This document shows positions 26,014 to 46,249 of a stretch of DNA of 60,624 nucleotides, piece by piece. The notes under the pieces are model-generated. The model saw only the letters and a list, made by a program, of their open reading frames with translations. It did no database searches and was not told where the DNA came from. Where the stretch lies: the NCBI GenBank assembly GCA_014802105.1, contig JAAVCX010000001.1, positions 1 through 60,624 of the forward strand. Direction: 5' to 3'. The translations under genes were made by a program, and so were the position numbers. Position 1 is the first letter of the stretch. Every line of letters starts with the position of its first letter. This DNA is from Bacteroides sp. (GTDB lineage Bacteria > Bacteroidota > Bacteroidia > Bacteroidales > Muribaculaceae).

Positions 26014-26055
26014 CTCTATACCCTATACCCTATACTCTATACCCTACATCCTATT
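26014..26055. repeat. 7-bp microsatellite array (CYCTATA)n, copy 1
   Basis: Six successive heptamers (CTCTATA, CCCTATA, CCCTATA, CTCTATA, CCCTACA, TCCTATT) end nine bases before the mrp start codon. The leading AATCTCTATAC matches the inner part of the inverted repeats flanking the four-helix-bundle gene at 44.5 kb. Confidence 0.85.
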
Positions 26056-42334: not shown

Positions 42335-42390
42335 TTGTTGCAGACGAAACTGAATAGTCAGCTATGATAGCTCGAGACTAATCTGAGAGT

Positions 42391-42450
42391 AGATGGAGTA
42401 TATATTATAGATGGAGTATATATTATAATAGATGGAGTATATATTATATA
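42391..42450. repeat. three tandem copies of an AT-rich unit
   Basis: The unit AGATGGAGTATATATTAT occurs at 42391, 42409 and 42430, with 0-3 extra bases (AAT, ATA) at unit ends. No dyad or coding capacity. Confidence 0.85.
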
Positions 42451-43403: not shown

Positions 43404-44435
43404 TCAGACTAATTGGGGAAGGAAGCAGGAGACGACGAGCACCACGATGCCGATGACAAGCACTGTGATGGTGCGCGGCGAGCAGCCTTTCCATTCCTTG
43501 AGGATGATGCCCCAGACGTTAGAGAAGACTACGTTGAGAGCCATCAGTATACAGAACGAGAGCGTGGTCAGGGTCTCGCTTGAGGTCAGGAAGCCCTTGC
43601 CCAGAGCGAGGCCGAAGAACTGGCTGTACCACAGGGCTCCTGCCAGGAGGCAGAACAGCAGGTTGTTGGCCAGGACGTCGCCCTTGAGATAGTCGCCCCA
43701 GGTGTGGTTTTTCTGGTTCTGATAGAAGCAGTAGATGGCGTTGGTGACGAAGCCTCCGAGGGTCACGAGCAGAGTGGCGGGGAGTGTCTTGTAGATCTCG
43801 GGAGTGAGGTCGCCGAAGTTGATGTCCTGACCGAAGGTCAGACCGACGTTGAAACATCCGCTCATGAAGCCTGCGAGCAGGGCGATGGTGATGCCTTTGG
43901 GGAAGTTGAAGTCCTTGACGGCGGCTTTTTTCTCTTCTTCGCTCAGCGAAGCAGCTTTCATGGAGCCTGCGATGCCGATGATGGCGATGCCGATGAGAGT
44001 CACCACTACGCCGAGTATCACTGCAAAGGTGAGCTGGGAGAGGGGGTCGTTTTCAGGGAAGAAGATGTTGAGCAGCACGGGGCCCATGATGGTGCCGAGA
44101 CCGGCACAGGTGCCCAGGGCTATGGACTGGCCGAGGGCTACGCCGAGATAGCGCATGGAGAGGCCGAAGGTGAGACCTCCGACACCCCAGAGGGCACCGA
44201 AGAGGATGGTCATCCAGATATTGAACGACTGCTCGGCGGTGAAGAGTTCACAGAGGGAGTGGCCGGCGGGGACGGCGAGCAGGGCACCGAGAAATGGGAG
44301 TATGAGCCAGGCGAAGACTCCCTGAGTGATCCAGTAGCTTTCCCAACTCCAGGATTTGATCTTGTTGATGGGCACATAGCAGCTTGACTGGCAGAAGGCT
44401 CCGATGGCGATAATGAGTAGTCCGATAAAAATCAT
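43404..44435 (-). CDS. rhaT: L-rhamnose/proton symporter
   Basis: A 343-residue inner-membrane sugar:H+ symporter of the RhaT type (drug/metabolite transporter superfamily), with about ten hydrophobic segments. The N-terminal block PINKIKSWSWESYWITQGVF and GLTFGLSMRYLGVALGQSIA are characteristic of RhaT. The start at 44435 follows the right-hand side of the inserted four-helix-bundle unit by 17 bases. Confidence 0.93.
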   Translation of the reverse strand: MIFIGLLIIAIGAFCQSSCYVPINKIKSWSWESYWITQGVFAWLILPFLGALLAVPAGHSLCELFTAEQSFNIWMTILFGALWGVGGLTFGLSMRYLGVALGQSIALGTCAGLGTIMGPVLLNIFFPENDPLSQLTFAVILGVVVTLIGIAIIGIAGSMKAASLSEEEKKAAVKDFNFPKGITIALLAGFMSGCFNVGLTFGQDINFGDLTPEIYKTLPATLLVTLGGFVTNAIYCFYQNQKNHTWGDYLKGDVLANNLLFCLLAGALWYSQFFGLALGKGFLTSSETLTTLSFCILMALNVVFSNVWGIILKEWKGCSPRTITVLVIGIVVLVVSCFLPQLV

Positions 44436-44452
44436 AATGATTGGATTTATAA

Positions 44453-44492
44453 AGTATAGAGTATAGGGTATAGAGTATAGAGATTCTGAATG
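44453..44492. repeat. left inverted repeat of the four-helix-bundle unit
   Basis: 40-bp arm of period-7 repeats, ending inward with GATTCTGAATG; pairs with 44952-44991 with two mismatches. Confidence 0.9.
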
Positions 44493-44524
44493 ATAATGAG
44501 TTTGGAGAGAGGATGGATAGGTTT

Positions 44525-44908
44525 TTAGAATGGGGTGACTGTCGAATTCCGTTTTATAATGAAATTGCGATAGCCGCTCATCATTCGTCCTATCTCCTCA
44601 ATGTCAATTCTTAGACTTTGCATGGTTTCAGGGTTAACAATGCCTATATCATGAGCCAATGTAAGCTGACAACTTACTTCGGTCAGAGAGCCATAAGCAT
44701 TGCTAAGAAACCTGAGTTTTTCTTTATCGGAAATTCTACCTGAACCTTCGGCTATGTTTGAGGATATCGATATGACGGCTCTGCGTATTTGATCAGTAAG
44801 AGCATATTTCTCTTCCACCGGAAAATCCCGTGTGAGAAGATAGATGTTCCTGACCAGTGTTCGCGATTTCTGCCATAATTGTAGCCTCTCATAGTTGAAC
44901 ACCGACAT
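44525..44908 (-). CDS. four-helix-bundle protein (23S rRNA-intervening-sequence / S23 family)
   Basis: A 127-residue, all-helical protein of the family TIGR02436/PF05635: FNYERLQLWQKSRTLVRNIY, then FPVEEKYALTDQIRRAVISI, SSNIAEGSGR and LSNAYGSLTEVSCQL. Members form small oligomers; relatives are the Avd protein of diversity-generating retroelements and proteins coded in rRNA intervening sequences. No enzymatic activity is established. It is unrelated to rhamnose metabolism, has lower GC than its neighbours, and is bracketed by inverted repeats, all suggesting insertion. No reverse transcriptase or variable repeat is nearby, so a DGR is not supported. Confidence 0.9.
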   Translation of the reverse strand: MSVFNYERLQLWQKSRTLVRNIYLLTRDFPVEEKYALTDQIRRAVISISSNIAEGSGRISDKEKLRFLSNAYGSLTEVSCQLTLAHDIGIVNPETMQSLRIDIEEIGRMMSGYRNFIIKRNSTVTPF

Positions 44909-44951
44909 CGTTTCGCGTAAATGAAAAACTAAAAACTTTGAATCGAATAAA

Positions 44952-44991
44952 CACTCAGAATCTCTATACTCTATGCCCTATACTCTATACT
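44952..44991. repeat. right inverted repeat of the four-helix-bundle unit
   Basis: Complement of 44453-44492 in 38 of 40 positions; ends four bases before the rhaA stop codon (44996-44998). Confidence 0.9.
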
Positions 44992-44995
44992 CAAT

Positions 44996-46249
44996 TTATC
45001 GCTTGGAGGTGACTTCCTTCTCGTATTTCTCGATTTCGGGAACGAAGGTCTCGCCGACGGGAACGTTGTTCTTGAGGCAGAACATGTCGTAGACAGCGTT
45101 CCAGGGGAGGTTCTTGCACTCCTCGAGGATGGCGAGACGCTGGAAATACTGGCCGGCGAGCTCATATTTGCGGAGCATCTCGGTGGGCTCGAGCAGGGCG
45201 CGGAGCATACACTTCTGAGCGGCACGGCTACCGATTACGTAGGCACCGATGCGGTTGAGGGTACCGTCGAAGTAGTCGAGGCCGTAGTGTACGCGGTTGA
45301 GGGCGCCTGCGCGGACGATCTCGCTGAAGAGGTCGAGGGTGGGGTCGTCCATGATGGTGACATGGTCGGAGTCCCAGCGGATGGGGCGCGAGACGTGGAG
45401 CATCAGCTCGGGCACATAGAGCAACATGGCTGAAACCTTGTCGGCTACGCTCTCGGTGGGGTGGAAGTGGCCGGTGTCGAGGGTGATCATCATGTTGTTT
45501 TTGGCGGCGTAGGCGGTGTAGAAGTCGTTTGAGCCTACGGTGTAGCTCTCGAGACCGATACCGAATACCTTTGACTCAACACAGTCTTTCATCCAGTCGT
45601 AGCGGTGCTCGAAGATCTGGTCGAGGGAGTCCTTGAGGAGCTCGCGGTAGTAGTAGCGGTTGACGGTGATGTCTTTGGAGCCGTCGTGTACCCAGGTGTT
45701 CATGATACAGGGATCCTGCTGGGCCTCACCGATGGCCTGGGAGATGGCGCGGCAACGCTTGGAGTGCTCGATCCAGAAGTCGCGTATGCCCTTGTCGGGG
45801 TTGGAGAGGGAGAGGTCGCCGCTCTTGGAGTGGGAGAAAGAGGTGGAGTTGAAGTCGAGCTTGATGTCGTTGGCTTTACCCCAGTCGATCCAGCTCTGGA
45901 AGTGTTCTACCGAGCACTGGTCGCGATCGACGTATTTGCCGCCGAAGTCGCCGTAGATCTCGTGGAGGTTAAGACGGTGCTTGCCGGGGATGAGCGACAT
46001 GGCATAGAGGATGTCGGCGCGGAGCTCGTCGATATTGCGGGCTTTGCCGGGATAGTTGCCGTTGACCTGGATGCCGCCGGTGAGTGAGCCGCCCTGGTTC
46101 TCGAAGCCGGCTACGTCGTCGGCCTGCCAGCAGTGCATGCTCAGGTGGAAGTCCTGCATCTGGTCGAGGACTTTGTCGGTGTCGATGCCGAGAGCGGCGT
46201 AGCGCTCGCGGGCGATTTCGTAGGCTTTCTTGATGAGTTCTTCTTTCAT
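44996..46249 (-). CDS. rhaA: L-rhamnose isomerase
   Basis: Converts L-rhamnose to L-rhamnulose (called rhaI in Bacteroides). The 417-residue TIM-barrel protein contains VLDQMQDFHLSMHCWQADDV near the N-terminus, LDFNSTSFSHSKSGDLSLSN, and the metal-ligand region MITLDTGHFHPTE and WDSDHVTIMDD. Length equals the known enzymes. It lies 43 bases after rhaB. Its 3' end abuts the inserted repeat unit, which separates it from rhaT. Confidence 0.95.
   Translation of the reverse strand: MKEELIKKAYEIARERYAALGIDTDKVLDQMQDFHLSMHCWQADDVAGFENQGGSLTGGIQVNGNYPGKARNIDELRADILYAMSLIPGKHRLNLHEIYGDFGGKYVDRDQCSVEHFQSWIDWGKANDIKLDFNSTSFSHSKSGDLSLSNPDKGIRDFWIEHSKRCRAISQAIGEAQQDPCIMNTWVHDGSKDITVNRYYYRELLKDSLDQIFEHRYDWMKDCVESKVFGIGLESYTVGSNDFYTAYAAKNNMMITLDTGHFHPTESVADKVSAMLLYVPELMLHVSRPIRWDSDHVTIMDDPTLDLFSEIVRAGALNRVHYGLDYFDGTLNRIGAYVIGSRAAQKCMLRALLEPTEMLRKYELAGQYFQRLAILEECKNLPWNAVYDMFCLKNNVPVGETFVPEIEKYEKEVTSKR

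Follow-up and report, generated by a model that had tools for sequence, protein, structure and literature searches.

A gene for a 23S rRNA intervening-sequence protein framed by heptamer-repeat arms between rhaA and rhaT in a Muribaculaceae genome

The intervening sequence (IVS) in the 23S rRNA of Coxiella burnetii, described as selfish, is 428 nt long; its terminal inverted repeats form a long stem, the loop of which contains an open reading frame (ORF) of the intervening-sequence protein (IVP) family (PMC4990558). Its excision by RNase III has been demonstrated, and tandem heptamers are located just 5′ of the ORF (PMC4990558). That paper assigns no known function to S23p, mentions S23p of Xanthomonas campestris, and treats intervening sequences as a matter of rRNA.

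Heptameric repeats have been described from other bacteria. In Xanthomonas and Nostoc, GGGNATC heptamers place their G-rich strand after stop codons and their C-rich strand before starts; two Xanthomonas genomes contain 70 and 75 inverted heptamer pairs, and an association of the repeats with mobile elements was generally not seen (PMC4692102). The Beggiatoaceae possess TAACTGA repeats, and heptamers lie 5′ of start codons in Beggiatoaceae and some Bacteroidetes (PMC4679880). The available portions of these two papers draw no link to IVP genes (the word “intervening” is absent from that of PMC4692102, and “S23” from that of PMC4679880).

The protein family itself has surfaced in several contexts. 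Work on retroelements and immunity notes the resemblance of PF05635 to Avd and treats it as an Avd-like protein (PMC10053308), and PF05635 is named in the legend of a figure on CRISPR association (PMC10910872). In Flavobacterium columnare, guanylate kinase, a four helix bundle protein, and nicotinate-nucleotide adenylyltransferase are consecutive and listed under phage elements (PMC5524665). Among the literature matches listed (open-licence papers, judged by title or the opening of the abstract), none dealt with operon-borne IVP units.

REP/RAYT systems combine many small dispersed hairpins with one gene that is framed by the same repeat. Here, we compare these systems with a unit found in a 60,624-nt stretch of a Bacteroides sp. 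genome of the Muribaculaceae (contig JAAVCX010000001.1), which is called the window in the following.

Results

Architecture of the window unit

The unit is situated among rhamnose genes (Table 1), and its neighbors in the window encode rhamnulokinase, L-rhamnose isomerase, RhaT, and rhamnulose-1-P aldolase. A first-pass annotation had described a 127-codon four-helix-bundle gene of the rRNA intervening-sequence family, and the assignment is borne out by matches to PF05635 (E 4.8e-37, 126.9 bits versus a cut-off of 33.8) and to TIGR02436, “four helix bundle protein” (E 7.4e-35). A solved relative is 2GSC, named XCC0516 (E 7.5e-22), which we take to be S23p of Xanthomonas campestris.

The 40-bp inverted repeats of the same annotation (38/40 complementary) were recovered as two arms of 40 nt each with 2 mismatches. 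The inverted-repeat (IR) score of the unit is 70, compared with a maximum of 24 in 100 shuffles, and in the predicted RNA fold the arms form a closing stem of ∼40 bp (z −10.4). The rhaA–rhaT spacer of 560 nt shrinks to 21 nt when the 539-nt unit is removed, in agreement with the earlier placement of the unit exactly between the two genes.

Table 1. Features of the window around the IVP unit and gene-less heptamer arrays
Feature	Position	Strand	Matches
Gene-less array of the window heptamer family, just 5′ of the ATG of a putative gene	26014..26054	+	
Gene-less array of the window heptamer, at and after the rhaD stop codon	42532..42573	-	
rhaT, L-rhamnose/proton symporter, downstream host gene	43404..44435	-	
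Downstream arm in gene sense: C-rich strand, CTATACT heptamers, adjoins the rhaT start	44453..44492	-	
IVP gene (23S rRNA intervening-sequence protein, four-helix bundle), 127 aa	44525..44908	-	PF05635, TIGR02436, relative 2GSC
Upstream arm in gene sense: G-rich strand, AGTATAG heptamers and GATTCTGAGTG	44952..44991	-	
rhaA, L-rhamnose isomerase, upstream host gene	44996..46249	-	

No transposase was seen within the unit, and the locus does not lie inside a 23S rRNA gene, its flanks being rhaA and rhaT. TnpA_REP is absent from the gene of the unit, which matches only IVP/Avd-type families. Avd of the diversity-generating retroelements is related to IVP, and its models bAvd (39.7 bits, cut-off 40) and DivGenRetAVD (42.8 bits, cut-off 80) both scored below their cut-offs. 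A reverse-transcriptase partner, as in an Avd-type retroelement, was rejected, with 0 matches to PF00078 in the 77%-complete window genome. A scan of 20 of the 237 surveyed IVP loci (see below), the window locus included, gave no Rfam match of any kind. The PADLOC models of anti-phage defense returned 0 families for the window IVP gene, and a phage collection searched at E 1e-6 gave no match, leaving phage carriage without support.

Occupancy of the rhaA–rhaT site in related genomes

The rhaA gene was found in 34 of 61 genomes. We retrieved 30 loci and read 18 rhaA–rhaT spacers, 17 of which belong to the window's genus, whereas G036 represents a different genus of the same family; L050, cut by a contig end, and L052–L062, not parsed, were left out. 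Three spacers contain an IVP gene in heptamer arms, namely those of the window genome (G000), G005, and G014. The IVP of G005 is 68% identical to that of the window genome, and at the G014 locus (L036), a single ORF between heptamer arms comprises two IVP stretches in succession. Four further spacers hold a gene-less hairpin of the heptamer type (G012, G017, G002, and G007, the last with another unit), in which no IVP was detected by HMM. The first-pass annotation had proposed that relatives be compared for empty rhaA–rhaT sites, and these exist: the remaining 11 of the 18 spacers possess neither IVP nor hairpin and measure 59–124 nt (3 spacers), ∼30 nt (3 spacers), or at most 3 nt (5 spacers).

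The gene-less hairpin of G017 has approximately the same sequence as the arms of G005, and both genomes fall into one supported group of the rhaA tree (95/93). The window genome groups with the gene-less G012 (91/90). Support in this tree is strong on 4 of 18 inner branches. Together with the rhaA tree, the distribution of IVP, hairpin-only, and unoccupied spacers across related genomes indicates that gene and hairpin come and go at the rhaA–rhaT site.

Dispersal of the heptamer in the window's genome and genus

In the 2.08-Mb window assembly, CTCTATACTCTAT gave 56 overlapping matches at 16 places, compared with 0 for the reversed control, and the CTCTATA heptamer is not private to the window unit. 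Most of these places are gene-less arrays, of which examples from the window are listed in Table 1. Among 13 further array regions inspected, inverted pairs occurred in two (C8 and C12) and single arrays otherwise. The C-rich strand of the single arrays usually lies directly 5′ of an apparent start codon, as judged by eye rather than by gene calling. Overall, the arrays carry the G-rich strand after stops and the C-rich strand before starts; the gene start was confirmed for ffh–folD and the stop for rhaD. Downstream of the rhamnose operon, near the array that follows rhaD, the window also contains a 21-bp unit repeated three times in tandem (42390–42448).

Within the window's genus, CTCTATACTYTATA (CTCTATA type) had overlapping matches in 7 of 27 genomes (G000, 63; G005, 35; G012, 24; G020, 5; G014, 4; G017, 3; G002, 2), and the reversed control had at most 1 match per genome. 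The unit of a G014 IVP (AAGGTTAT type) gave 28 overlapping matches in G014, 5 in G012, and 1 in G003, and that of the G003 IVP (TTAGTTT type) gave 171 in G003, 7 in G005, and 1 each in G007 and G017. The three units for which dispersal was counted are dispersed mainly in those genomes whose IVP elements carry them. Exceptions are G017, where the hairpin and dispersed heptamers occur in the absence of an IVP match, and G012, which has CTCTATA arrays, yet its own IVP is flanked by another unit. The window genome encodes one IVP above the family cut-off and two weak partial matches.

At ffh–folD, 9 of 24 spacers were readable, too few for a count. The spacer of G014 (L241) contains a 222-nt gene-less hairpin with units that resemble the arms of a G014 IVP gene.

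Arms and repeat units of IVP genes across the family

For a wider survey, IVP loci were taken from the Bacteroidales (the retrieved loci and a chosen part of the match list), from the window's family (likewise in part), and from all phyla (the best 80 of 589 confirmed matches). Identical proteins and ORFs <60 nt from a contig end were dropped, and arms were called at an IR score of at least 28. This score is reached at 163 of 237 IVP loci, or 113 of 175 when one locus per site is counted, since many of the surveyed loci represent the same site in related species; 74 loci fall below it. By set, arms are present at 63/90 loci from Bacteroidales, 48/64 further loci from the family, and 52/83 loci of the broad set. 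Control ORFs have arms in 5 of 154 cases (other ORFs of the retrieved loci and of the window, with slightly shorter flanks) and in 9 of 228 cases (other ORFs of the retrieved loci; Fisher p 6e-28 for the broad set). Outside the Bacteroidota, with phyla assigned from record titles, 13 of 18 IVP loci are armed. These include Verrucomicrobia, Planctomycetes, Acidobacteria, one Desulfosarcina, and one Betaproteobacterium, and one locus each from Firmicutes, Cloacimonadota, Chloroflexi, Thiobacillus, and Thiodictyon lies below the arm score.

A 7- or 8-bp array adjoins at least one side of 65/90, 49/64, and 52/83 IVP genes in the Bacteroidales, family, and broad sets, whereas arrays of 4–6 or 9–13 bp were found beside 7, 7, and 2 genes, respectively. 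Arrays of period 7 or 8 alone are a poor statistic, because neighboring ORFs share the same spacer (85/228 broad controls), and we therefore relied on the IR score. The repeat unit differs from one IVP locus to the next. Two features of the arms recur nevertheless across loci: the upstream arm is richer in G than in C (146/163 loci; 98/113 with one per site), and unit variants are arranged in mirror order, with an arm pairing of 51.1 versus 38.3 for permuted units (P ≤ 0.05 at 37 of 97 loci). The similarity of arms (cosine) follows the identity of the IVPs, at 0.83 for 80–100% identity, 0.32 for 60–80%, and 0.10 below 30%, which is largely a matter of same-site descent. At one locus (L143, G086:C67), two IVP genes that are 99% identical stand side by side, and the nearby repeats are 6-bp rather than 7–8-bp units.

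We also compared genomes of the window's family with and without IVP, using samples of up to 40 kb per genome. Intergenic arrays of 7–8 bp numbered 21 in 576 kb from 15 IVP-bearing genomes and 1 in 559 kb from 15 IVP-less genomes. Any such array was present in 7/15 IVP-bearing and 1/15 IVP-less genomes (Mann–Whitney p 0.006, uncorrected for kinship), and 8 of the 15 IVP-bearing genomes had none in their sample. The excess may in part reflect a general richness in repeats, because G037 contributes 10 of the 21 arrays by itself and a surplus in IVP-bearing genomes is also seen for arrays of 9–11 bp (14 versus 2).

Position and orientation of IVP units

Position was counted at 212 of the 237 loci; 25 were dropped because their neighbors were not both within 500 nt or because they lay near the end of the retrieved stretch. 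The upstream neighbor is encoded on the same strand as the IVP at 200 of the 212 loci, and both neighbors are at 160. At the 105 operon-like sites with arms, the armed unit begins a median of 2 nt after the upstream stop (quartiles −4 and 13) and ends a median of 9 nt before the next start (quartiles 3 and 21).

Outside this count, 23 cyanobacterial plasmid records match IVP, and 10 regions were opened. The sites include nrdB/nrdA (L333), cas6/cas4 (L334 and L335), and cmr2/cmr3 (L338), and arms of 7–8-bp units are visible by eye at several of these plasmid loci. In L333, L339, and L340, the IVP gene is oriented opposite to both annotated neighbors, an exception to the sense rule.

Gain, loss, and movement at other sites

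Two Nostoc plasmids, L337 and L341, display reciprocal occupied and empty sites. L337 carries a unit that separates a 441-nt gene from a 288-nt gene, and the same site is empty in L341. Conversely, L341 harbors a different unit 3′ of the 288-nt gene, at a site that is empty in L337. The stretch of the 288-nt gene is 99.7% identical between the plasmids, and the outer flanks are 93% and 90% identical. The empty form of the first site is a 3-nt spacer. At the second site, an overlapping TAATG becomes TAATG...ATG once occupied, and the stop and start of both host genes are preserved.

No general target duplication was found, as none was seen at the G005 insert and the Nostoc sites keep only ATG or nothing. 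The motif ATTTAT, which had been reported two bases outside both arms of the window unit, does occupy these positions but is weak as a target duplication, because the copy on the right shares bases with the rhaA stop codon and a comparable repeat is missing from both the G005 insert and the Nostoc sites.

In a genus other than the window's, the ftsY–rimO spacer contains an IVP with AGGGGAG-type arms in 4 of 30 genomes (G334, G410, G252, and G382). An IVP is also found in the spacer 5′ of cysS in 3 of 14 genomes, where that of G319 is of the AGGGGAG-armed ftsY–rimO type and those of G295 and G181 are of another type; no genome has an IVP at both sites. The IVP of G319 at cysS is 80.8% identical to that of G334 at ftsY–rimO and has the same kind of unit. 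One IVP type with the same repeat unit resides at two sites (L160 and L166). Many species of one genus carry short, species-specific arrays of ∼9-bp units (TCTAGA-, CGGATAATA-, and CTATAGTGG-like) without an IVP in their ftsY–rimO spacers (L405–L429).

The movement of IVP units appears to be slow, because 53 of 64 IVP pairs with at least 80% identity share both site and orientation. The others occupy the same site in inverted form (8 pairs), share one side (1 pair), or lie elsewhere (2 pairs). Eight close pairs with seemingly different flanks were considered as relocations and rejected, since they represent the same site with an inverted element. Inversion at the same convergent site separates L172 and L182 from L181 and L212, and L205 and L190 from L211, L206, and L217. 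At convergent sites, the stretch enclosed by the arms can apparently flip. Among the loci retrieved, no genome had near-identical IVP copies at different sites; the one such pair, in G086, stands side by side. The first-pass idea of a small mobile unit without its own transposase gains support from the presence and absence of units at orthologous sites, from L160 and L166, and from the family-wide association of IVP genes with arms.

Selection on IVP genes

The dN/dS ratio of IVP genes was 0.03–0.15 in the 10 pairs computed, with dS above 1 in 6 of these. For the pair of the window genome and G005, synonymous sites are saturated, and pN/pS is 0.33. By these substitution ratios, the IVP genes tested are under purifying selection, and the protein therefore seems to be kept for a function.

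Discussion

The window unit sits flush between a stop codon and the next start on the sense strand, and in relatives the same site is occupied, empty, or hairpin-only. Gene-less arrays and hairpins of its repeat unit are dispersed over the genome that carries it. We lean toward interpreting the window unit as a relative of the 23S rRNA intervening sequences that resides in mRNA, a small mobile hairpin element with gene-less derivatives. Like these intervening sequences, it possesses one IVP-family gene in the loop of a long inverted-repeat stem. In contrast to them, it lies between protein genes of an operon and not in 23S rRNA, and the IVP units studied here differ further in their stems of 7–8-bp arrays, in the purifying selection on the tested pairs, and in their gene-less dispersed copies. 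The unit would be classed as a variant of the intervening sequences by its gene family and architecture, although it lacks their defining position inside 23S rRNA.

The window repeat is comparable with the repeats of Xanthomonas, Nostoc, and Beggiatoaceae in its 7-bp units, its mostly intergenic location, and its genome-specific sequence. The heptamers of Xanthomonas and Nostoc also have the same strand polarity, and inverted pairs occur in Xanthomonas. However, their GGGNATC unit is capable of forming G-quadruplexes, whereas the window unit consists of CTCTATA/AGTATAG. Similar to REP/RAYT systems, gene-less hairpins with the repeat of the element are dispersed, although in the window genome these are mostly single arrays. 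The window unit encodes a four-helix bundle instead of TnpA_REP (HUH) and has 7–8-bp tandem stems instead of REP palindromes.

In a possible mechanism, the element would be a long hairpin with a single IVP gene in its loop and a stem built from 7–8-bp repeats in mirror order. Judging from the stem and the sense orientation, this stem would be cut in the transcript, probably by RNase III as in the rRNA intervening sequences, where such excision has been shown for Coxiella. As the stem is located between genes, the cut would do little harm to the host genes. An IVP oligomer may bind its own repeat stem, and this binding could help the element or its gene-less derivatives to persist and spread. 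Gene-less hairpins that share the unit of an IVP look like non-autonomous forms.

Alternatively, the heptamer hairpins could be independent intergenic repeats that are shaped by slippage and hairpin correction and have a role in mRNA processing or translation, with IVP as a passenger or a host RNA-binding regulator. Several observations fit such repeats: most heptamer arrays of the window genome are gene-less and often single, gene-less hairpins occur at the rhaA–rhaT site itself, G017 has repeats without an IVP match, and arrays of 9–11 bp are likewise commoner in IVP-bearing genomes. The GGGNATC heptamers of Xanthomonas and Nostoc, too, show the same polarity, generally without mobile elements (PMC4692102). 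Independent repeats do not readily explain, however, why arms bound 163 of 237 IVP genes, why, for the three units tested, dispersed arrays and IVP arms correspond within a genome, or why whole units of IVP plus arms are missing from sister sites. The Nostoc sites also lean toward insertion of a complete unit where no earlier repeat was present, and we regard independent repeats as a rather unlikely explanation.

The inverted ends, the clean empty sites on the Nostoc plasmids, and the inversion between arms at convergent sites would be expected of a non-autonomous transposon that carries IVP as cargo and relies on a transposase from elsewhere to move its ends. Yet the arm sequences vary among loci and species, and the two Nostoc sites share no target duplication, so that one transposase recognizing all arms is hard to see; we consider such a transposon improbable. 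Purifying selection and the many same-site orthologues might instead point to an ordinary, vertically inherited operon gene that happens to be surrounded by terminator-like hairpins. Its patchy presence within one genus, at odds with the rhaA tree, and the different IVP types at rhaA–rhaT speak against vertical descent, as do the empty sites beside a 99.7% identical neighbor in Nostoc. The empty sites largely refute this explanation, and its probability is very small.

A broader proposal is conceivable, although we hold it only tentatively and consider it on balance doubtful. IVP genes may define a phylum-crossing class of minimal mobile elements in which one four-helix-bundle protein recognizes its own 7–8-bp stem and causes operon hairpins to arise, spread, and turn over, each IVP lineage having its own unit. 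This class would then include, as branches, both the 23S rRNA intervening sequences and the heptamers of Xanthomonas, Nostoc, and Beggiatoaceae. At the cas6–IVP–cas4 and cmr2–IVP–cmr3 loci, insertion may be an alternative reason for the reported linkage of PF05635 with CRISPR, and IVP genes in CRISPR operons may be passengers. If IVP genes largely belong to operon-dwelling mobile hairpins, the protein would gain a testable role in the binding of its own repeat stem. Such hairpins would also provide a possible cause for the crowding of heptamers with fixed polarity at the gene junctions of unrelated bacteria and would represent a bacterial mobile element without a recognizable transposase.
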